Source of the DNA: Picochlorum sp. 'celeri'
Taxonomy: Eukaryota; Chlorophyta; Trebouxiophyceae
Direction: 5' to 3'
Assembly (NCBI GenBank): GCA_010909725.1
Contig: JAACMV010000008.1
Coordinates: 930,001-994,000, forward strand
Length of the DNA: 64,000 bases
The first letter of the stretch is position 1, and every line of letters begins with the position of its first letter. Under the pieces are notes generated by a model. The model saw only the letters and a program-made list of their open reading frames with translations, was not told the origin of the DNA and searched no databases. Of the stretch, positions 52,482 through 60,902 are shown piece by piece. A program made the position numbers and the translations under genes.

Positions 52482-54767
52482 ATGGGCCATCGGTATAGGT
52501 CTTCTGATCGAGAGGAAGGAAGTAGCAGTCGGTTTTTGAGGCCTGGTGAAGGAAGGAAAAGTGCTTTTGGAGTGTCGTTCCAGGATGTAGAGAGGCGGGG
52601 TTCTGATAATGCGTCTTCAATTCCTATATTCAATAGATACAGAGGATTGAGGATTGAGGAGCAGCAGCGGCTGCTACCAATCTTCAAATATAAAAGGGAG
52701 ATTCTGTATTTGGTGGAGAAACATGCCACGTGTATCATTGTCGGAGAAACTGGATCAGGAAAGACGACACAAGTTCCTCAATACCTCTATAGTGCTGGCT
52801 GGGCGCCGATAGGAAGTATGATTGCGTGCACACAGCCACGGAGGGTGGCAGCCATGTCTGTAGCCGCTCGGGTAGCAGAGGAAATGAATGTTGAGTTGGG
52901 GCAAGAGGTTGGGTTCGCTATTCGATTCGAGGATGTTTCGAGCCATCAGACTAGGATCAAGTTCTGTACAGATGGTGTGTTGATCAAGGAAATGGCGACG
53001 GACCCACTCTTGTCCAAGTACTCTGTCGTCATGGTCGATGAGGCTCACGAGCGATCTGCATCAACCGATGTTTTACTAGGACTTTTGAAAAAGATACAGA
53101 AGAGACGGCCGAGTCTGAGAATCATTATATCTTCGGCTACTATTGACGCTGAAAGGTTTGCCTCTTTCTTCTTTGACGCGTCAACGAGCATTTCTCAAGA
53201 AGAAGCCCATGCTGATCGTCCTTCTGGCATGCCTGGGATGTTATCTGTTCAGGGCCGAACCCACTCTGTTCAGGTCCATTACTTGGAAAGGCCTTGTCAG
53301 GACTATGTGCAAACATCTGTGGAAACGGTGTATAAAATTAATGATGCTGGTTTGCCCGGAGATATTCTAGTCTTCTTGACAGGCCAGGAAGAATGTGACA
53401 AGGCTGTATCCTTGGTCCAAGAATCCAATCATTCCCAGTATACAGAAGGGCGCAGTCAGAGGAGAAGCGGCACCAGACTTTATCCAGTCGCCTTATATTC
53501 AGGCCTTTCTGCAAAGCATCAGATGGAAGTCTTTGAGTCTCCTCCGAGGAACTGCCGCAAAGTTGTATTTGCTACAAATATTGCAGAGACGTCTGTCACA
53601 ATAGACGGGATCGTGCACGTTGTGGATTGCATGTTCTCGAAACAGAGGAATTTCGATCCATTTATTGGCTTAGAAAGTTTACTTGTGGCTCCGATAAGCA
53701 AAGCTAGTGCAGTACAGCGATCTGGTAGGGCAGGGAGAGTGAGGCCTGGCTTTTCGTACCGATTATGCACACAGGAGCATTTCGAAAATCTCGACACCGT
53801 AGAGATTCCGGAACTTCAGAGAAGTGATTTGACATCAATAGTATTACAACTCAAAGGCCTTGGGGTTGATAATATGTTGCATTTTTCATGGCTGACTCCT
53901 CCACCATCAGAGTGTATGGTGAGATCATTGGAAAACCTCCATGCTCTGGGAGCACTTGGCGACGATGCAAAACTTACACAATATATGGGAAGGTATATGA
54001 GTGAGATTTCTGTGGAACCCCAACTTTCTAGGGCGCTTTTGGTATCTTGGTCCGCAGGCTGTGTGTACGAAGTCGCAACAATATCTGCCATGTTGAATGT
54101 TCAAAGCATTTGGGCATCAGGGAGGAGGAGGGATCTTGACAGCGCGAAATCTCAATTTGCTGTCGAGGAGGGAGATTTAATAACCTATTTAAATGTATGG
54201 AAAGCTTGGGAAGAAAACAAGAGGAGCAAAAGTTGGGCGATTAAAAATTTTGTGAGCCACAGATGTCTCATTCGAGCATCTGATATCCGAGACCAAGTCT
54301 TGCGACAGATCATACGCCTGAAGAAACAAAGTTCTCCGGACGACCCAATTTTCTGTAGAAGATCTTTACAAGATATTAGAGATAATATTCTTCTGCGCAA
54401 AGATCTGAGCCGTGAGGAAATACACGATCGCATAATTGCCATTCAAAAATCACTTGCAGCTGGACTCTTTCTGAATTCTGTGCAGCTTAGATTTGGGCCT
54501 CGAGGTGAGCCTGAGATTGACAATGAAGGAAACTCAACGTATAGATTCCTGAGAAACACTGGAGATCCTCTGACGGAAATGTCCAGGCTTCGAATCCACC
54601 CATCATCTGTCATGTACGGGCGCCAGCCCCAATGGCTCTGTTTCTACATGGCACAACAGACTGGGAAACACAGTGTCGACATGCAAGAGGTTCACTGTGT
54701 GAAGCCTGAATGGCTCGCAGACGCAGCGCCAAACTTTTTCAATGCATCCAAAAAGAAAACTATCTGA
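52482..54767 (+). CDS. DHX35: DEAH-box RNA helicase, DHX35-like
   Basis: 761 residues from the ATG at 52482. Full DEAH-box set: GETGSGKTTQVPQYL (motif I), TQPRRVAAMSVAARVAEE (Ia), DGVLIKEMATDPLL, MVDEAHERSASTDVLL (II), ISSATIDAERFASFF (III), FLTGQEECD, TNIAETSVTIDGI (V) and QRSGRAGRVRPGFSYRL (VI), then the HA2 and OB regions. MLHFSWLTPPPSECMVRSLENLHALGALG fits DHX35, a spliceosome C-complex associated helicase, more than DHX8/15/16. The Fanzor element begins 15 bp after the stop codon, so this gene's 3' flank is element DNA. Confidence 0.87.
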   Translation: MGHRYRSSDREEGSSSRFLRPGEGRKSAFGVSFQDVERRGSDNASSIPIFNRYRGLRIEEQQRLLPIFKYKREILYLVEKHATCIIVGETGSGKTTQVPQYLYSAGWAPIGSMIACTQPRRVAAMSVAARVAEEMNVELGQEVGFAIRFEDVSSHQTRIKFCTDGVLIKEMATDPLLSKYSVVMVDEAHERSASTDVLLGLLKKIQKRRPSLRIIISSATIDAERFASFFFDASTSISQEEAHADRPSGMPGMLSVQGRTHSVQVHYLERPCQDYVQTSVETVYKINDAGLPGDILVFLTGQEECDKAVSLVQESNHSQYTEGRSQRRSGTRLYPVALYSGLSAKHQMEVFESPPRNCRKVVFATNIAETSVTIDGIVHVVDCMFSKQRNFDPFIGLESLLVAPISKASAVQRSGRAGRVRPGFSYRLCTQEHFENLDTVEIPELQRSDLTSIVLQLKGLGVDNMLHFSWLTPPPSECMVRSLENLHALGALGDDAKLTQYMGRYMSEISVEPQLSRALLVSWSAGCVYEVATISAMLNVQSIWASGRRRDLDSAKSQFAVEEGDLITYLNVWKAWEENKRSKSWAIKNFVSHRCLIRASDIRDQVLRQIIRLKKQSSPDDPIFCRRSLQDIRDNILLRKDLSREEIHDRIIAIQKSLAAGLFLNSVQLRFGPRGEPEIDNEGNSTYRFLRNTGDPLTEMSRLRIHPSSVMYGRQPQWLCFYMAQQTGKHSVDMQEVHCVKPEWLADAAPNFFNASKKKTI

Positions 54768-54781
54768 TATTTATTAATGTA

Positions 54782-54902
54782 CAGTAAAATTTTTTAATTT
54801 CGTTTGTCGGACGGAATGTTCCAAACTTGGAAGTTCCATCGTTCTCTCTGCTGTATCTTGAAGCATAGCGTCTGCAAAAAGCAGCCGACTTACATGCCGA
54901 AT
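54782..54902 (-). ncRNA. Candidate omega-RNA scaffold region of the Fanzor element
   Basis: 121 bases between the Fanzor stop codon and the element end. In TnpB and Fanzor systems the guide RNA scaffold comes from this part and its guide segment from DNA just past the end. Two small hairpins are visible: TTCCAA-AC-TTGGAA (54819-54832) and CTGC-AAAAA-GCAG (54872-54884). The region also includes the left TIR. Transcription is not shown by the sequence, so this is placement by analogy. Confidence 0.35.
54786..54820 (+). repeat. Left terminal inverted repeat of Fanzor element
   Basis: The outer 20 bases AAAATTTTTTAATTTCGTTT match the complement of 57324-57343 at 19 positions. Seven unmatched bases follow, then GGAATGT, shared with the right side. 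The outermost four bases (CAGT, 54782-54785) are less conserved. Confidence 0.7.
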
Positions 54903-57254
54903 TCATTGCCGTGTTGATGTCCTTTGCCTTTTCCTCGTCCTCTTGAAAGCCTTGATTCGAGATCCATTGTGACACTTTTCCAAAAACAAGTCTTTGATAT
55001 TGATACTGGCATTGACATCACGGTCCCAAACATTTCGAATGCATTCATTGTTGTGACAACGTTTCATCCTGAATTGTTTGTTGTACTGTTCCATTGCCTC
55101 ATGACAGCAAGAACAGAGTTTGGACGTATTGAATTCATTAACCAACACAACTGTGGCACATTCCGATACCTTGTTGAACAGTTTTGTGCTCATGATAGGA
55201 GCAGTGCCCCTCATTGTGCCGTTATTATCACCATCACCATACGCCACGATGACTCTCTTCTGTGCCTCTTTGTTTCTTGTTCCACAGATTCGAGCAACCA
55301 CATCCTCCATGGCCGACTTTTCCTTGCAAAATTTCCTCATCTTCTGTTTCTGATACCATTTTTTGTCATCGAAGAAGGCTTGTTGCAGTTGGGGCCACAT
55401 AGAAACTTGGAATCTGTAACTCTCAAAAATTTTCTCAAAATCTACTGTCTTGCATGTTGGCACAGACACCCATGCAGGACAGTATTCAGACATCCTTTTC
55501 TTCATTTTGGCTGTATACTGTTTCTGACTAGATAAGAAGATCCATTCTCCTGACCCCAGAGAATCACTTTTATATCTGTCTTCCACCTCTGCATGACGAC
55601 CATTTTCTGCATTCCACTTTGCATGGATCTTTTGCTTTTCCGAATCATGAAAAACCCACGTGGCCGCTGACTTTTTACCTGGGTCCAAACCGACAATGAT
55701 ACAATCTGTGTGATATATACCATGGTCATCTTTGCGTATGCCAGCCAACCTTTTGATCCTTTCTGTGATGACTGTCTTGTCTTTGTTTTTAGCCTTTCGT
55801 TTCTGTAGAACGTCCTTTTGTGACTTTAATGTATGCAACAATGGCTTCAGTAGAACATAATGTATGGTGGAAATGTCACCAAGGAGAATACGCAAAGGGT
55901 CATATCTGATCTTTTTTGCAATAATGTTGGTTGCAAACATCCCACAATAGGTGGCCCACAACTTTGCTTTGACGTAATTCATATCATCCTGCAGATGGAT
56001 TATCTTGCATTCCAGATCCGACTTCACAGTGTCTATAACAGCAGAAACAGAGACGCCATCAGTGCATATAGAGCATCCGAATCTGAGTTTCGTTTGGTCC
56101 TTCATGTGCTTTTTTTTCAATACTCGCTTCATGTTGAATATCGATTTCCAATAATAATACTTATTTGTATAGTCATCCAGTGCTGGACAGTCATCTACTA
56201 TCTTTCTGATATATGGATATTTCTTTGCGAGTTGCTCAACCATAGTCTTCACTGCTGTGCTGGAGATATGGATATGCTTTGGTTTCCAGGCCATCTGTGG
56301 ACACAGACAAAATGTCCATTTCTGTCTTCCAAGTATACTCTTCTTCCCTTCAAACTCTCCGTTTCTGAACCTCTGTTGCAGTGATTCCACGAATGGCTCC
56401 AAGTGACCCAAAATGAAGAAGCAAATTCTGGATTTCTCAGAAAGAGTTGTCGTCTTTGGCACCAACGAGCAAATGATATCCAAGGCTCTCTGTGCTTCAT
56501 CCCATACTGACACATCAGACGCAAATTCTGTCAATGATGGTCTACGTTCAACAATATCACTGACTTTCGTCCTCTCCCAGAATGCCTGTGTGATTGCAGA
56601 AAATACTTGTCCAAACTTCTTCTTTGACAAATTTTTGATTTGGTCAAAGTCCGTGTCGTCTCGAAATAGCAAATATCTCAGATACCGTAATGCATATACA
56701 TTAAGATTGGTTTCCAAATGCGTGGTATGCATAACAGACGACTGCTGGGCCATCTGCTCCATTGTTTTGCCTCTCCAAGAAGAGAGACAACCCTGTGGCC
56801 AATCTGTTTTTAACCCAGTCTCCTCACAATATTCCTTGCACAAGTCGCGCAAGTTGGTATCAACATCCTTTCTCTCCTTCTTTTGTTGCAAATGATTAGC
56901 AAGGTGTCTGTAGATTTTGTTGTAGAGTTCGTAGAGAGTTTCATCTTTGTGGTCTCTAAATGCCCCACCGTTCCTCAATAACAATAGATGCATGACATGA
57001 TGCACATGAATCTGTAGTCTACTCAGATAGAATACACATTCTTCAATTTCGCGTTGAACCACTTTGAACTTACAAAAAGGCTGCAAAGTGCACTTGACGA
57101 CTGTCTTATTGAAAAAACGGTCTTTATCCTTCTTTATAGCCACATCCAATCGAGTAAACTTCTTTTTCTTCACCTTTTTCGATGGTGTGGCGGACACCTT
57201 TCTCTTTTTTTTCATTTTGAAATGACACGGTTGGCGATGGCGGCTCGACTTCAT
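54903..57254 (-). CDS. Fanzor (eukaryotic TnpB homologue), RNA-guided RuvC nuclease
   Basis: 783 residues from the ATG at 57252-57254, without introns or breaks. The frame extends 14 codons further upstream with no ATG. The N-terminus is strongly basic and contains KMKKKRKVS and KKVKKKK, nuclear localisation signals, the first almost identical to that of SV40 large T. A long helical, Lys-rich recognition region (about 40-510) leads to the RuvC domain: IIVGLDPGKKSAATWV (catalytic Asp about 524), VIVAYGDGDN, VVLVNEFNTSKLCSCC (Glu about 707) and VWDRDVNASINI (Asp about 746). A zinc finger (Cys714, 717, 733, 738) lies between the last two. The Glu directly before TSKxCSxC is the arrangement described for Fanzors. 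Known members are programmable, RNA-guided DNA endonucleases. All catalytic residues are present, so activity is plausible. Confidence 0.92.
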   Translation of the reverse strand: MKSSRHRQPCHFKMKKKRKVSATPSKKVKKKKFTRLDVAIKKDKDRFFNKTVVKCTLQPFCKFKVVQREIEECVFYLSRLQIHVHHVMHLLLLRNGGAFRDHKDETLYELYNKIYRHLANHLQQKKERKDVDTNLRDLCKEYCEETGLKTDWPQGCLSSWRGKTMEQMAQQSSVMHTTHLETNLNVYALRYLRYLLFRDDTDFDQIKNLSKKKFGQVFSAITQAFWERTKVSDIVERRPSLTEFASDVSVWDEAQRALDIICSLVPKTTTLSEKSRICFFILGHLEPFVESLQQRFRNGEFEGKKSILGRQKWTFCLCPQMAWKPKHIHISSTAVKTMVEQLAKKYPYIRKIVDDCPALDDYTNKYYYWKSIFNMKRVLKKKHMKDQTKLRFGCSICTDGVSVSAVIDTVKSDLECKIIHLQDDMNYVKAKLWATYCGMFATNIIAKKIRYDPLRILLGDISTIHYVLLKPLLHTLKSQKDVLQKRKAKNKDKTVITERIKRLAGIRKDDHGIYHTDCIIVGLDPGKKSAATWVFHDSEKQKIHAKWNAENGRHAEVEDRYKSDSLGSGEWIFLSSQKQYTAKMKKRMSEYCPAWVSVPTCKTVDFEKIFESYRFQVSMWPQLQQAFFDDKKWYQKQKMRKFCKEKSAMEDVVARICGTRNKEAQKRVIVAYGDGDNNGTMRGTAPIMSTKLFNKVSECATVVLVNEFNTSKLCSCCHEAMEQYNKQFRMKRCHNNECIRNVWDRDVNASINIKDLFLEKCHNGSRIKAFKRTRKRQRTSTRQ

Positions 57255-57308
57255 ACCAATCCAAGGTTCTAGAAGATTCGGATTGACCAGAGTCAAATGG
57301 ACTAGATG

Positions 57309-57343
57309 TTACATTCCTTAATTAAACGAAATTTAAAAATTTT
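57309..57343 (-). repeat. Right terminal inverted repeat of Fanzor element
   Basis: Read on the minus strand, the outer 20 bases are AAAATTTTTAAATTTCGTTT, one mismatch from the left copy, followed by six unmatched bases and GGAATGT. The last four element bases (57344-57347) precede the TA at 57348-57349. The block carries TGTAA on the minus strand, which could serve as polyadenylation signal for the PGAP3 gene. Confidence 0.7.
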
Positions 57344-57350
57344 GGAGTAT

Positions 57351-58460
57351 TTATTTCTGCTTCCCAACAACATGGAACCCCCCAACATCTCTCTTGACAA
57401 ACTCAAAAAAGCAATAGACGAGAGGAACAGTTGCAAGATGCCACAATGCGTGGGCGTCTAGAAGATCTGCTATCGGTGGGAAATCCAATATTTCTAACAA
57501 AACCGCAGCATTAACACAGGCAACAAAGAGCAATAGATATCTTCTTCCAGGATGCTGCTTGCCATGTTTTGAAAACATGGCCCATCCGATCCAAACCAGA
57601 CTTTGCAGCACCCCTGCTGCCACACAGAGACCTACATGGTATCCGTAATCAAACTTGACGTAATGCATCATGTACATATGACGGAGATAGAAAAGAATCA
57701 GACCAGCGGCAAACAGCATCCTACTTGTCTGAGAAGTCTGAAGCAAGTCAGAAAAGGCTCTGCTAAAACTAAGGTATGCATCAAAAATCATCACTGCGCC
57801 CGCAGAGAAATAATCTAATCTTTCGGTGATTGCCGTATCCCTGCTGTGGAAGACGGCCGACCAGATCCATGCATTGCTTGCAAGAATAAAGTGGCCATAC
57901 CACAAGAAGTGATGGCTAAAACCCATCCTCTCCACACCTGTGACAGGTTCCATAGACCAAACGTACTTCCGTAGTAATAATATACAGTTTACATTAGCAC
58001 CCAAGTTCAACAACGATAACACCACTGAAGCTGGCTCTTGCATGCCCAAGATCCTCACAAATGGCCATTTCCCATGGTACTTGTACACAGTCTTGTCCTG
58101 ATCATCTGCGGTGCCCTGACGCCTCTTATCTCCCTCAATCTTCCACATACATTTGTATCGGCAATCACTCTCGCACCCCCACCGCATTATACGACGAAGA
58201 ATGAATTCATCAAGCCTGGACAACCTGTGACCAGAATCATCTCCTCTGGCACAAAATGGGCTCTCAGAAACGCCCCGTGCAACATCTTCCACACCACCTT
58301 TTGGTAATCCACCTCTACGGCATCCCACAAGACAGGACTGATAGATTGCACTTTGATCACCCTGACTTGCCCTTCCCAAAGCAGGCAGCAGTGTCATGAG
58401 CAGTAAGATGCGCCACACTGTACCCGATATGAAGCCTTCATACCCCACCATCGACTTCAT
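57351..58460 (-). CDS. PGAP3: PGAP3/Per1-like GPI-anchor lipid remodelling protein
   Basis: 369 residues from the ATG at 58458-58460. A signal peptide (ILLLMTLLPALGRASQG) precedes a Cys-rich lumenal part (YQSCLVGCRRGG, RWGCESDCRYKCMW). Then comes YKYHGKWPFVRILGMQEPASVVLSLLNLGANV, the Per1 hallmark, and six to seven membrane helices with conserved His (SHHFLWYG, VFHSRDTAITERLDYFSA, HALWHLATVPLVY). These proteins belong to the CREST hydrolase superfamily and remove the sn-2 acyl chain of GPI anchors in the Golgi or ER. The stop codon is one base away from the TA flanking the Fanzor element, so the 3' UTR is element DNA. Confidence 0.88.
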   Translation of the reverse strand: MKSMVGYEGFISGTVWRILLLMTLLPALGRASQGDQSAIYQSCLVGCRRGGLPKGGVEDVARGVSESPFCARGDDSGHRLSRLDEFILRRIMRWGCESDCRYKCMWKIEGDKRRQGTADDQDKTVYKYHGKWPFVRILGMQEPASVVLSLLNLGANVNCILLLRKYVWSMEPVTGVERMGFSHHFLWYGHFILASNAWIWSAVFHSRDTAITERLDYFSAGAVMIFDAYLSFSRAFSDLLQTSQTSRMLFAAGLILFYLRHMYMMHYVKFDYGYHVGLCVAAGVLQSLVWIGWAMFSKHGKQHPGRRYLLLFVACVNAAVLLEILDFPPIADLLDAHALWHLATVPLVYCFFEFVKRDVGGFHVVGKQK

Positions 58461-58535
58461 ATGCCTTGAAAAATCAAAATAATTTAGGTTTAGGGAATTT
58501 GCCAGTGCTTTTGTGGACGTCTTTCCAAATTAATC

Positions 58536-58554
58536 AGTGTGGGTTACAGCACCA
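58536..58554. repeat. 19-bp motif, copy 2
   Basis: AGTGTGGGTTACAGCACCA, identical to 46440-46458. Here it lies 125 bp upstream of the mS26 start and 76 bp upstream of the PGAP3 start, inside their 218-bp shared spacer. Confidence 0.55.
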
Positions 58555-58678
58555 TGCACATGCGAGTCTCTCTGCCTTTTTTTAAGGAAAGGAGGTCACT
58601 GTGGAACGAGTGTCATGCATGTTCACCTGCCTCTGAAGAGTTGTTAAATGATAAAATAAACAATTGATTGCCTTAATA

Positions 58679-59390
58679 ATGGGTGGTTGTCATCATGCTG
58701 GAAAATTGCTGCGACAGGTGGTGACCCAACGCCACGGAGACAATGTCGGTCGTGCCTTGTCCGATGCAGGGATCAAGGGTACAGTCGAAGCAGTATTTGG
58801 ATCTAGGTCGTTTTATTCTTCTCGATATCCCTCCGATGATGCAGTCAGTGTGGAGGCCACGAAGACCAGGCGTTCGTCCATAGAGTATGGGAGGGAAAGG
58901 AATGCGTATGAGAGGGATTTGTCCAACTTGAGAAAGAAATGGTACGAGGAAGTGCACTCCAAGAGAATACAGGAGGAGGAGGAGAAGGAGAAACTCATTC
59001 GAGCTCAAGAAGCAAGAAAAGAGGAGAGGGCGAGAGCCCAGGCTGAAAGGAATGCGCGCATGGCGATGGAGTTGGATGGCCAATTCCAGAAAATAGAAGA
59101 GGCTAGAAGGCAAAAGGTCGAAAGAAGAATAGAGAATGTGCGCAGGGAGTTTACACGCCAGTCAGTAATAGCTGCCTTCCGGGAGAAGAGGTATGTGTGA
59201 TGCTCATGTTGCCTTATTTTTCTCTTCCTTTAAGACATCGATATGTTTTCTTGCCAGCAGGAAAGAAGTTCTATTGGAACAAAGCAGGCATTGGATTGCG
59301 ACGGAAGCAGAATTGGAGTCAAGGATAGATGCAGCAGTTGAAAATCCAGAGCCTCTCTGGGTTTCTGAAAAGGTGGCCAGAAAGGCTTGA
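58679..59390 (+). CDS. MRPS26: Mitochondrial small-subunit ribosomal protein mS26
   Basis: Two exons, 58679-59190 and 59261-59390, with a 70-nt intron (GTATGT donor, CAGCAG acceptor) that joins AG|G as an Arg codon; 213 residues in all. The N-terminal 60 residues are basic and Ser-rich (mitochondrial presequence). The middle is a long charged helix (NLRKKWYEEVHSKRIQEEEE to RIENVRREF), and the end KEVLLEQSRHWIATEAELES then RIDAAVENPEPLWV matches the conserved C-terminus of mS26. It belongs to the mitochondrial ribosome. Without the splice the protein would lose this diagnostic end. Confidence 0.75.
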
Positions 59391-59504
59391 TTCTACTGTA
59401 TCCGCCGCCGCTTGGACAGTAGGGCGTGATGTACTGCGGCAGATTTACAACAAACAATAAACAAGACTTAATATATGAGCAAAACTTGATTCACATTCAT
59501 TTTT

Positions 59505-60902
59505 CTATTGCAACTTCACAAGGTTGAATTTTGTCCTCTTTGAAGCGTTTGCTAAAGGACACTTCACTTCCTCCACCACAGTATTATATCCACGTTTTTC
59601 AATCAAGACAGTATATGTTCCGGGGGCAATAGGGCGGTAAAATTGTCCTTTCTCTGTGGAGATCACGTAGGAATCCAATCCATCAATGTAAACTTTGGCA
59701 CCTTTCAAAGCCCGCTTTGATCCATTTCTATTCTTCGTCCGAACAACGCCATTGATCCCTTTGAATGCAGTGGTTTTGATGAATTCCAAGACAGATTTCC
59801 TGTTATCCTCAAAGAGGCCTGGCAGCATCTTTGAGTTTGGCCATTTTGTCTTGCCTGCCTCGATGGTCAGTTCATATACATGCTCCATCAAATAATTCCA
59901 ATCACCCATACCTCCATAGATCGGATACCAAGCAGCTCCATTTGTGATACCGCCTGGAAATTGTCTCTGACGGAAGCTGCTCAGGACTCTGTGATTCTCA
60001 GCATATTCCCTGGCCAGGTACCTGAATGTTTCGTCATCAGGGCTCTTTGCATAATGTGTTCTCCCATCAGCTGTGCCATCAAAGGGATAACTAACCACCA
60101 ACTCGCCACCGTGAAACACAAGGCTAGAGACAAACGGATAATCCTGTGTCCATCCCATGATTGCCACAGTCTCAGGTTGTCTCCCTAATGTGTTACTCGT
60201 CATCCCTTCGTCGTCGAAGCGATCGGGAAAATCTCTATTTAAATCCACGCCATTCGCATTCCATCTTGTTTTAGCCTCGAATCCATCTGGGTTCATCCCT
60301 GGAAGCACCCATGTATGCACCCCAGAGACAATAGCAGACGCAGTAGGATCTGATTCATACTTCTCACATAGCCACTCTGCAACTCCCATAGAAACCACCC
60401 TTCCAACAGCCTCATTCCCATGAATTCCTCCGACTATTTTCACATGAGGCTTGCCATCCTTGAGTCCCTTATCCAAGGTGTTGGATATCTCCAGTGCCTC
60501 AATAGGCCGGCCTTTTACAGACCTGCCAATCTGCACCAGTCGCGCGATATCGCCACATCTGGAAGCGAAATTCAGCATATGCACATGCAGCTCTTCGCTA
60601 TCTAGATATCGTGTTGTCACAAACTCCAAAGGCGTCTTGGTAGTACCATCATCCCTGTTCTTCCTTCCCAAGGAGAATCCCTTGGGGGGCACGTACCCCT
60701 CCCATGACGCTGTCACGTCCCCATAGGTGAGGTTTTCAAATCTCTCTTTCATTCGTATGGCATCACCATCCATATACGCCAGAAGACCCTCATTCCCTTC
60801 TCCGTGGGCGACTACCACCGTGGCTACTACCACCCAAAGCAGCAGCAGTCTGACAGAGTGCGATACGCACCCAACCATCTCCACAACACTCGGCTTTTTC
60901 AT
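59505..60902 (-). CDS. M14 zinc metallocarboxypeptidase, CPD/SOL1-like (N/E subfamily)
   Basis: 465 residues. The ATG at 60900-60902 gives MKKPSVVEMVGCVSHSVRLLLLWVVVATVVVAHGEG, a signal peptide. The catalytic domain has VKIVGGIHGNEAVGR (zinc His and Glu), WVLPGMNPDGFEAKTRWNAN, GVDLNRDFPDRFDDEG, SLVFHGGELVVSYPFD (third zinc His) and YELTIEAGKTKWPNSKMLPG with the general-base Glu. A transthyretin-like domain follows (GVVRTKNRNGSKRALKGAKV, YRPIAPGTYTVLIEKRGYNTVV). It resembles carboxypeptidase D and plant SOL1, which trim basic C-terminal residues from secreted peptides. Only one catalytic domain is present. Confidence 0.9.
   Translation of the reverse strand: MKKPSVVEMVGCVSHSVRLLLLWVVVATVVVAHGEGNEGLLAYMDGDAIRMKERFENLTYGDVTASWEGYVPPKGFSLGRKNRDDGTTKTPLEFVTTRYLDSEELHVHMLNFASRCGDIARLVQIGRSVKGRPIEALEISNTLDKGLKDGKPHVKIVGGIHGNEAVGRVVSMGVAEWLCEKYESDPTASAIVSGVHTWVLPGMNPDGFEAKTRWNANGVDLNRDFPDRFDDEGMTSNTLGRQPETVAIMGWTQDYPFVSSLVFHGGELVVSYPFDGTADGRTHYAKSPDDETFRYLAREYAENHRVLSSFRQRQFPGGITNGAAWYPIYGGMGDWNYLMEHVYELTIEAGKTKWPNSKMLPGLFEDNRKSVLEFIKTTAFKGINGVVRTKNRNGSKRALKGAKVYIDGLDSYVISTEKGQFYRPIAPGTYTVLIEKRGYNTVVEEVKCPLANASKRTKFNLVKLQ

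Follow-up and report, generated by a model that had tools for sequence, protein, structure and literature searches.

A Fanzor1 gene in a transposase-less Tc1/mariner-type element of the alga Picochlorum sp. 'celeri', with possible RNA-guided retention

Introduction

What does a transposon gain from carrying an RNA-guided nuclease? The question is raised by a 64,000-nt stretch of the Picochlorum sp. 'celeri' genome (assembly GCA_010909725.1, contig JAACMV010000008.1, positions 930,001-994,000, + strand), here called the window, whose numbering is used for all coordinates given without a contig. Within it lies a 2,566-bp element (54782-57347) with a single gene for a Fanzor, a eukaryotic RNA-guided nuclease. 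In the portions of the Fanzor literature consulted, the benefit of these enzymes to their carrier elements is treated as an open question.

The explanation that we favour, with somewhat better than even confidence, is that a Fanzor1 resides in a non-autonomous Tc1/mariner-type transposon (DDE_1, presumably pogo-like) that is mobilised in trans and is retained or spread through RNA-guided cutting. The identity of the protein and of the element is close to certain, and the mechanism of retention or homing is a matter on which we stand evenly divided.

Results

Identity of the protein

The gene encodes 783 amino acids from ATG to stop without a break. The protein contains D524-P525-G526, E707, Cys 714/717/733/738 and R745-D746, confirming the RuvC residues Asp524, Glu707 and Asp746, the four-Cys zinc finger and the unbroken 783-codon gene reported in a preliminary description of this locus. 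Two homologue searches returned 12 proteins each, 13 distinct overall (sources ena, lgn and jgi), the profile search adding only one relative, the partial P0013. The catalytic and zinc-finger residues form invariant columns in an alignment of 13 proteins including that of the window, with 11 of the 13 being 47-57% identical to the window protein. Another of the homologues, P0001, matches the copy at genomic site S10 (see below) in all but one residue, and its source is probably this alga or a very close one. The amino acids that set the S10 type, as in P0001, apart from the window copy are clustered at residues 144-165 (56760-56825, - strand), with 10 in 22 residues, a pattern that conversion or diversification might leave.

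Domain and structure searches agreed with the Fanzor assignment of the preliminary description. Pfam placed PF07282 (Cas12f1-like TNB domain) at residues 701-753 (4.9e-08). A family-profile search of PDB returned Guillardia theta Fanzor1 at E 0.0016, the only Fanzor among eight rows, the remaining seven being non-Fanzor proteins at E 0.23 or worse. An AlphaFold model of low confidence (mean predicted local distance difference test score, pLDDT, 54) was used solely with Foldseek, where the only five matches at E<=0.001 were SpuFz, PpFz and GtFz, all Fanzor1, with template modelling (TM) scores of 0.20-0.28. NCBIfam gave no match up to E 1. A lectin, the single row of a single-sequence PDB search, scored E 0.16 and was taken as chance.

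Published descriptions of the Fanzor layout were also compared, each as given in the passages of the source. The pattern D-X(125,275)-[TS][TS]-X-X-[C4 zinc finger]-X(5,50)-RD (PMC3627910) is present as D524, T710-S711, the four Cys and R745-D746, with 185 residues from D524 to T710; the regular expression itself matched from an earlier Asp, spanning 452-746. A second layout has DPG at RuvC-I and a glutamate six residues ahead of the zinc finger (PMC10711439), and here D524-P525-G526 is found and six residues separate E707 from C714. The strict, TnpB-oriented search pattern of that source does not match, owing to the D-to-E spacing and to a second zinc knuckle of C-x4-C, not CxxC. Fanzor1 proteins are those of eukaryotic non-IS607 transposons and are larger than Fanzor2; at 783 amino acids, in an element with terminal inverted repeats (TIRs) and TA whose relative bears DDE_1, the window protein belongs with them.

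The element and its copies in the genome

The element has inverted ends of about 24 bp and a TA at either side. Its arms (54786-54805 and 57324-57343) are 95% complementary over 20 nt and rank top of 11 inverted pairs in the region, in agreement with the 2.57-kb unit with 19/20-matching repeats between two TAs noted earlier. Among open reading frames (ORFs) of >=150 amino acids, no transposase was seen between the ends, the other two ORFs being antisense within the Fanzor ORF.

The genome searched was that of the alga itself, at 27,412,692 bases in 30 contigs (C numbers below; L numbers denote loci). It is probably the phased diploid Picochlorum celeri assembly, for which the passages of PMC7225527 give 27.43 Mbp, divided over two 15-scaffold sets, with 46% GC and 0.8% heterozygosity by single-nucleotide polymorphisms (SNPs). 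A protein search gave 58 matches, of which 13 were full-length (1-783) and open, at eight sites (S1-S7 and S10, the window copy being S1); the remainder were partial or had frame breaks. The end pattern occurred 48 times at <=3 mismatches, related elements included, and 0 times in the control. The same first and last bases bound the elements at other sites, the exceptions being S10, truncated copies and the allele of S7 on C11, and TA is present on both sides of copies with both ends intact, as in Tc1/mariner-type elements. The end-pattern counts and the common boundaries show that the element is not a chance arrangement. The copies with the same ends, which the preliminary description had proposed to seek, were thus found, and with the transposase-bearing relative described below they sustain its reading of a transposase-less, non-autonomous Tc1/mariner-type carrier.

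Most copies, read in gene sense, begin with CCGTAAAAATTTTAAATTTCGTTT after TA and finish with AAACGAAATTAAAAAATTTTACTG before TA. The first bases beside the 5' TA vary by site (CCGT; ACGT at S2; TCGT at S10; CTCC at S1), unlike the 3' end, which is constant across the compared copies. Specifically, most other copies start with TA followed by CCGTAAAAATTTT, whereas the window copy has TA followed by CTCCAAAATTTTT on both homologues. The locus had been called complete rather than decayed; this holds for the gene. The 5' terminus is divergent, and because it differs by four bases from the usual one, the mobility of the window copy is uncertain.

Counting one homologue each and excluding two 25-kb contigs, 9/11 copies are found no more than 65 kb from the end of a contig. 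Seven of the eight open-gene sites are occupied on both homologues. At the eighth, S6 (C27:10559), the flanks are non-syntenic, and it was rejected as proof of an empty site: the 5' flank consists of a subtelomeric repeat, which matched 63 rows counting the query, and the sequence on the 3' side shows synteny with C15. This copy (C27:10466-13031, L009; compared with C15, L065) stands at the breakpoint between the two kinds of sequence, which suggests recombination at the element. The 3' flank of a further site, S8, was found at five places, all adjoining an element. A 20-kb DNA search of the window yielded no allele on C17, its six matches being short and to repeats, and viral contigs held 52 pattern stretches and 0 relatives.

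Multiple copies with transposon ends on many large contigs contradict an origin of the protein by domestication of a host gene or by contamination with a prokaryotic TnpB. The single intact ORF adjoining host genes speaks for such an origin. DPG with an alternative Glu marks Fanzor, not ordinary TnpB, in the passages of PMC10711439; we regard either origin as highly improbable.

A transposase-bearing relative

A 6,021-bp, TA-bounded relative at C20:34490-40510 (L021, L061) encodes a Fanzor 50% identical to that of the window and an 896-amino-acid ORF with a DDE_1 domain (PF03184, 5.7e-13), which we take to be a pogo-like transposase. One of its ends fits the searched pattern with 2 mismatches, and the other is more diverged and was missed by it. 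Among the 21 genome matches of the transposase, that on C20 alone is full-length and open. The C20 element is apparently autonomous, and its transposase or close kin would be the likely mobilising source of the 2.57-kb elements.

A predicted target-adjacent motif

In gene sense, A stands directly before the 5' TA at 10/10 sites (S1-S8, S10 and a truncated copy at C22:14,081). Site S9 was left out, its flanks being related to those of S8 and S10; the count is 11/11 if it is included. Across both strands of the window, A precedes 0.378 of TA, and 0.378 to the tenth power is 6e-5. The base after the 3' TA is the symmetric T in 1/9 cases (A 6, C 2; asymmetry Fisher 1e-4). Near-identical ends would lead one to expect symmetry from a transposase preference, so the asymmetric A would point to a target-adjacent motif (TAM) instead. 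By this reasoning, and by analogy with SpuFz1 of Spizellomyces punctatus, the TAM of this Fanzor family is predicted to be 5'-ATA.

Allelic copies on the two homologues

Comparison of seven allelic pairs showed that 2/17,872 bases differ within the element vs. 114/16,873 in the flanks (Fisher 3e-33, a value that overstates the contrast as bases are not independent). For S10 only the 3' flank was counted, its 5' side lying in a captured stretch of that copy. Substitutions in element and flanks, respectively, were 1 and 0 at S1, 0 and 0 at S2, 0 and 8 at S3, 0 and 11 at S4, 1 and 9 at S5, 0 and 77 at S7, and 0 and 9 at S10; the flanks are therefore heterozygous at five of the seven pairs. Without S7, the totals are 2/15,369 in the element vs. 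37/14,115 in the flanks, and S3, S4, S5 and S10 alone give 1/10,235 vs. 37/8,551. Site S8 lies on two 25-kb contigs and does not enter into these totals; its counts are 4/2,561 vs. 35/2,697.

The strongest case is S7, with 0/2,503 in the element vs. 77/2,758 in the flanks and SNPs 22 bases upstream and 15 downstream. Its C11 allele (C11:4710-7182, L010), compared with that on C19 (L011), is missing 66 bases beginning with the A of the 5' TA, and AG takes the place of the first 16 bases of flank past its 3' TA. SpuFz1 is described in passages of PMC10432273 as cleaving after bases 16-17 of the non-target strand; the agreement with the 16-base lesion is a single event and may be chance.

RNA-guided retention and its alternatives

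The mechanism that we favour can be set out in four steps. The 2.57-kb element would be mobilised in trans by a transposase like that of the C20 relative. The Fanzor would bind an RNA read from the 121 nt past its stop codon together with adjoining host DNA. The complex would cut a matching empty site beside 5'-ATA, and repair templated by the occupied chromosome or by the sister would restore or spread the element. In its strongest form this would make the family a natural RNA-guided homing element of a diploid eukaryote, with the empty site of the homologue cut beside 5'-ATA and repair copying the element into it. We offer this form tentatively and consider it rather doubtful. Homing would account for the presence of near-identical elements on both homologues at seven of the eight open-gene sites, within flanks that are heterozygous at five of the seven, and would make the S7 allele on C11 an imperfect copy. 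The homozygous, near-identical insertions and the asymmetric ATA would fit RNA-guided copying, short of proof.

Several observations weigh against this explanation. No clean empty site was found in the alga's own genome. Before its 5' TA the C20 element carries T in place of A (one case). The candidate scaffold folds little better than shuffled sequence (z -1.27 for the 121 nt, -1.44 for 97 nt with the repeat removed and -0.02 for 150 nt that take in 29 nt of coding sequence). The near flanks of two of the seven pairs, S1 and S2, are SNP-free like their elements, and at S1 the SNP-free zone extends over 52,775-60,249 of the window save one base in the element. Five Fanzor-free allelic control pairs, three of them near S1 or S7, differ at 31/12,413 bases in all, and two of the five are SNP-poor (1/3,083, and 0/1,401 in one with a transposase-like match). 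A Fanzor-less stretch with related ends on C2 and C22 shows 0/801 between homologues. SNP-free runs of the size of the element are thus not rare. The C20 element and its homologue on C5 (L026, L069-L071) have no mismatch in the compared stretches, near flank included, and differ there only by gaps (13/3,789 columns and 2/3,617).

These SNP-poor pairs lend weight to another account of the allelic near-identity, by which it came from repair after transposase excision, from ordinary loss of heterozygosity or from effects of phased long-read assembly. Repair after excision of cut-and-paste elements copies from the homologue, which fits what is seen, and the 13 gaps between C20 and C5, all of a single base and without any substitution, have the look of unpolished read errors. 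Site S7, where SNPs closely bracket an unchanged element, is hard to square with this account, and different sites retain their own differences, so that there has been no global collapse. We place this account a little below an even chance.

By a further alternative, the Fanzor is a passenger: the family spread recently by transposase alone, the enzyme need not act in retention, and the gene is intact because the copies are young. Elements at different sites are indeed only 0-15 bases apart, S10 (37-55) and the C21 copy L024 (14-25 from non-S10 copies) excepted (12 representatives). The ratio of nonsynonymous to synonymous substitution rates (dN/dS) for five closer pairs is not clearly low, ranging between 0.38 and values over 1 with 4-10 changes, and this too speaks against a role of the enzyme in retention. 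The S10 copy compared with three other copies gave 0.28-0.31, which shows purifying selection on the Fanzor gene. That ratio, the catalytic residues kept in all 13 aligned proteins despite their divergence, and the dependence of the A at the 5' TA on orientation are at odds with a mere passenger, which we consider unlikely. Frame breaks in L014, L018/L019 and the C5 copies were rejected as signs of decay, being single-base gaps with no substitutions relative to the homologue and having the look of residual long-read errors.

RNA-guided retention of a trans-mobilised Fanzor1 element, the explanation favoured here, makes two sharp predictions for this family, namely that the target motif is 5'-ATA and that the element is copied from one homologue to the other. 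The family is young, intact and multi-copy and shares its genome with a likely transposase source, and Cas9 methods have been reported for P. celeri in titles and opening lines of abstracts.

Features of the locus and related sequences

The positions of the parts are given in Table 1. The lysine-rich N-terminus includes KKKRKV, which we take to be a nuclear-localisation-like motif. Two convergent ORFs, judged by sequence to be presumably a DEAH-box helicase and a PER1-like protein, end at 54767 and 57351, and their stop codons would be about 15 bases apart if the element were removed. Rfam gave no match up to E 1 over 54700-57450. The 3' region of the C20 relative appears similar in layout to that of the window element, with a hairpin directly ahead of the terminal repeat; as only two sequences are at hand, covariation cannot be shown.

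Table 1. Parts of the Fanzor element and its borders in the window.
Feature	Position	Strand	Basis
Predicted guide-encoding flank, first ~20 nt past gene 3' end	54760-54779	-	Analogy with SpuFz1 omega-RNA
TA target-site duplication, gene 3' side	54780-54781	.	Sequence, site comparison
Terminal inverted repeat, gene 3' end; + strand CAGTAAAATTTTTTAATTTCGTTT	54782-54805	-	Inverted-pair and end-pattern search
121 noncoding nt after the stop codon, reaching the element end; candidate scaffold of the guide RNA	54782-54902	-	Position as in SpuFz1
Fanzor ORF, 783 amino acids	54903-57254	-	ORF, Pfam, alignment, PDB profile, Foldseek
RuvC-III Asp746 codon	55017-55019	-	Alignment and residue check
C4 zinc finger, Cys714, 717, 733, 738	55041-55115	-	Pfam and residue check
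RuvC-II alternative Glu707 codon	55134-55136	-	Alignment and residue check
RuvC-I Asp524 codon (DPG motif)	55683-55685	-	Alignment and residue check
Lysine-rich N-terminus with KKKRKV	57150-57215	-	ORF translation
Terminal inverted repeat, gene 5' end; gene sense CTCCAAAATTTTTAAATTTCGTTT, usual form CCGTAAAAATTTTAAATTTCGTTT	57324-57347	-	Comparison of copies
TA target-site duplication, gene 5' side	57348-57349	.	Sequence, site comparison
Predicted target-adjacent motif 5'-ATA	57348-57350	-	A before 5' TA at 10/10 sites

Related sequences were noted elsewhere in the genome. The copy at C15:912453-917771 (L062, L012) and its C27 homologue hold about 2.75 kb of other sequence between the 5' terminal repeat and the Fanzor gene, and this insert resembles the 5' flank of copies on C29, C13, C1 and C21. 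A 527-bp stretch at C2:1322214-1322740 (L063; homologue at C22:1296352, L075) has related inverted ends and TA with no room for a Fanzor, and can be read as a short derivative or ghost-like element. Five weaker matches (C10:1080021, C11:1142431, C14:386041, C16:1071868 and C19:34320), at 26-31% identity over part of the C-terminal half and with open frames of 975-1034 codons, probably represent further Fanzor families. Inspection by eye of the sequence around and past the 3' ends of further Fanzor-like matches (C10, C14, C20:48k) revealed no obvious common ends.

Comparison with known systems

Listed titles, opening lines of abstracts and passages from the Fanzor, Chlorophyta and Picochlorum-transposon literature, supplementary catalogues being outside this scope, gave no sign of the window family, and the passages of PMC12633428 do not describe a Picochlorum Fanzor. 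Among the papers listed on Fanzors with homing or gene conversion, no title or abstract opening reports homing by a Fanzor. A bacterial counterpart exists in TnpB acting as a gene drive in plasmids, according to passages of PMC11870625.

PMC12633428 describes in passages an abundant Fanzor repeat in Auxenochlorella, likewise a diploid trebouxiophyte alga; that element is uncharacterised according to the same source, and the likeness is one of description only. GtFz1 of Guillardia theta shares with the window protein the glutamate shortly before the zinc finger and, as aligned, the C-x4-C second knuckle, and differs in having Asn as third catalytic residue, where the window protein has Asp746, and TTAA as TAM (passages of PMC11423790).

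A parallel in layout is offered by SpuFz1 (Saito 2023; passages of PMC10432273). Its elements are also multi-copy, with a single Fanzor ORF, inverted repeats and a noncoding stretch from the stop codon to the 3' repeat. A conserved CA precedes the 5' repeat and the TAM is CATA; in the window family an A stands there and ATA is predicted, in the same arrangement. The likeness of the two proteins was found by fold only.

Fanzor1-bearing Tc1/mariner elements have been described as PUl-4, PUl-1 and PGv-1 (Bao and Jurka 2013; passages of PMC3627910). As in the window, the Fanzor1 ORF lies within TIRs with a TA duplication, and some of these elements hold only the Fanzor and some also a mariner transposase. 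By their descriptions they are set apart by their hosts, and here a DDE_1-bearing relative shares the genome with the Fanzor-only form. The window element is thus a new member of a previously known kind, Fanzor1 in Tc1/mariner-type elements.

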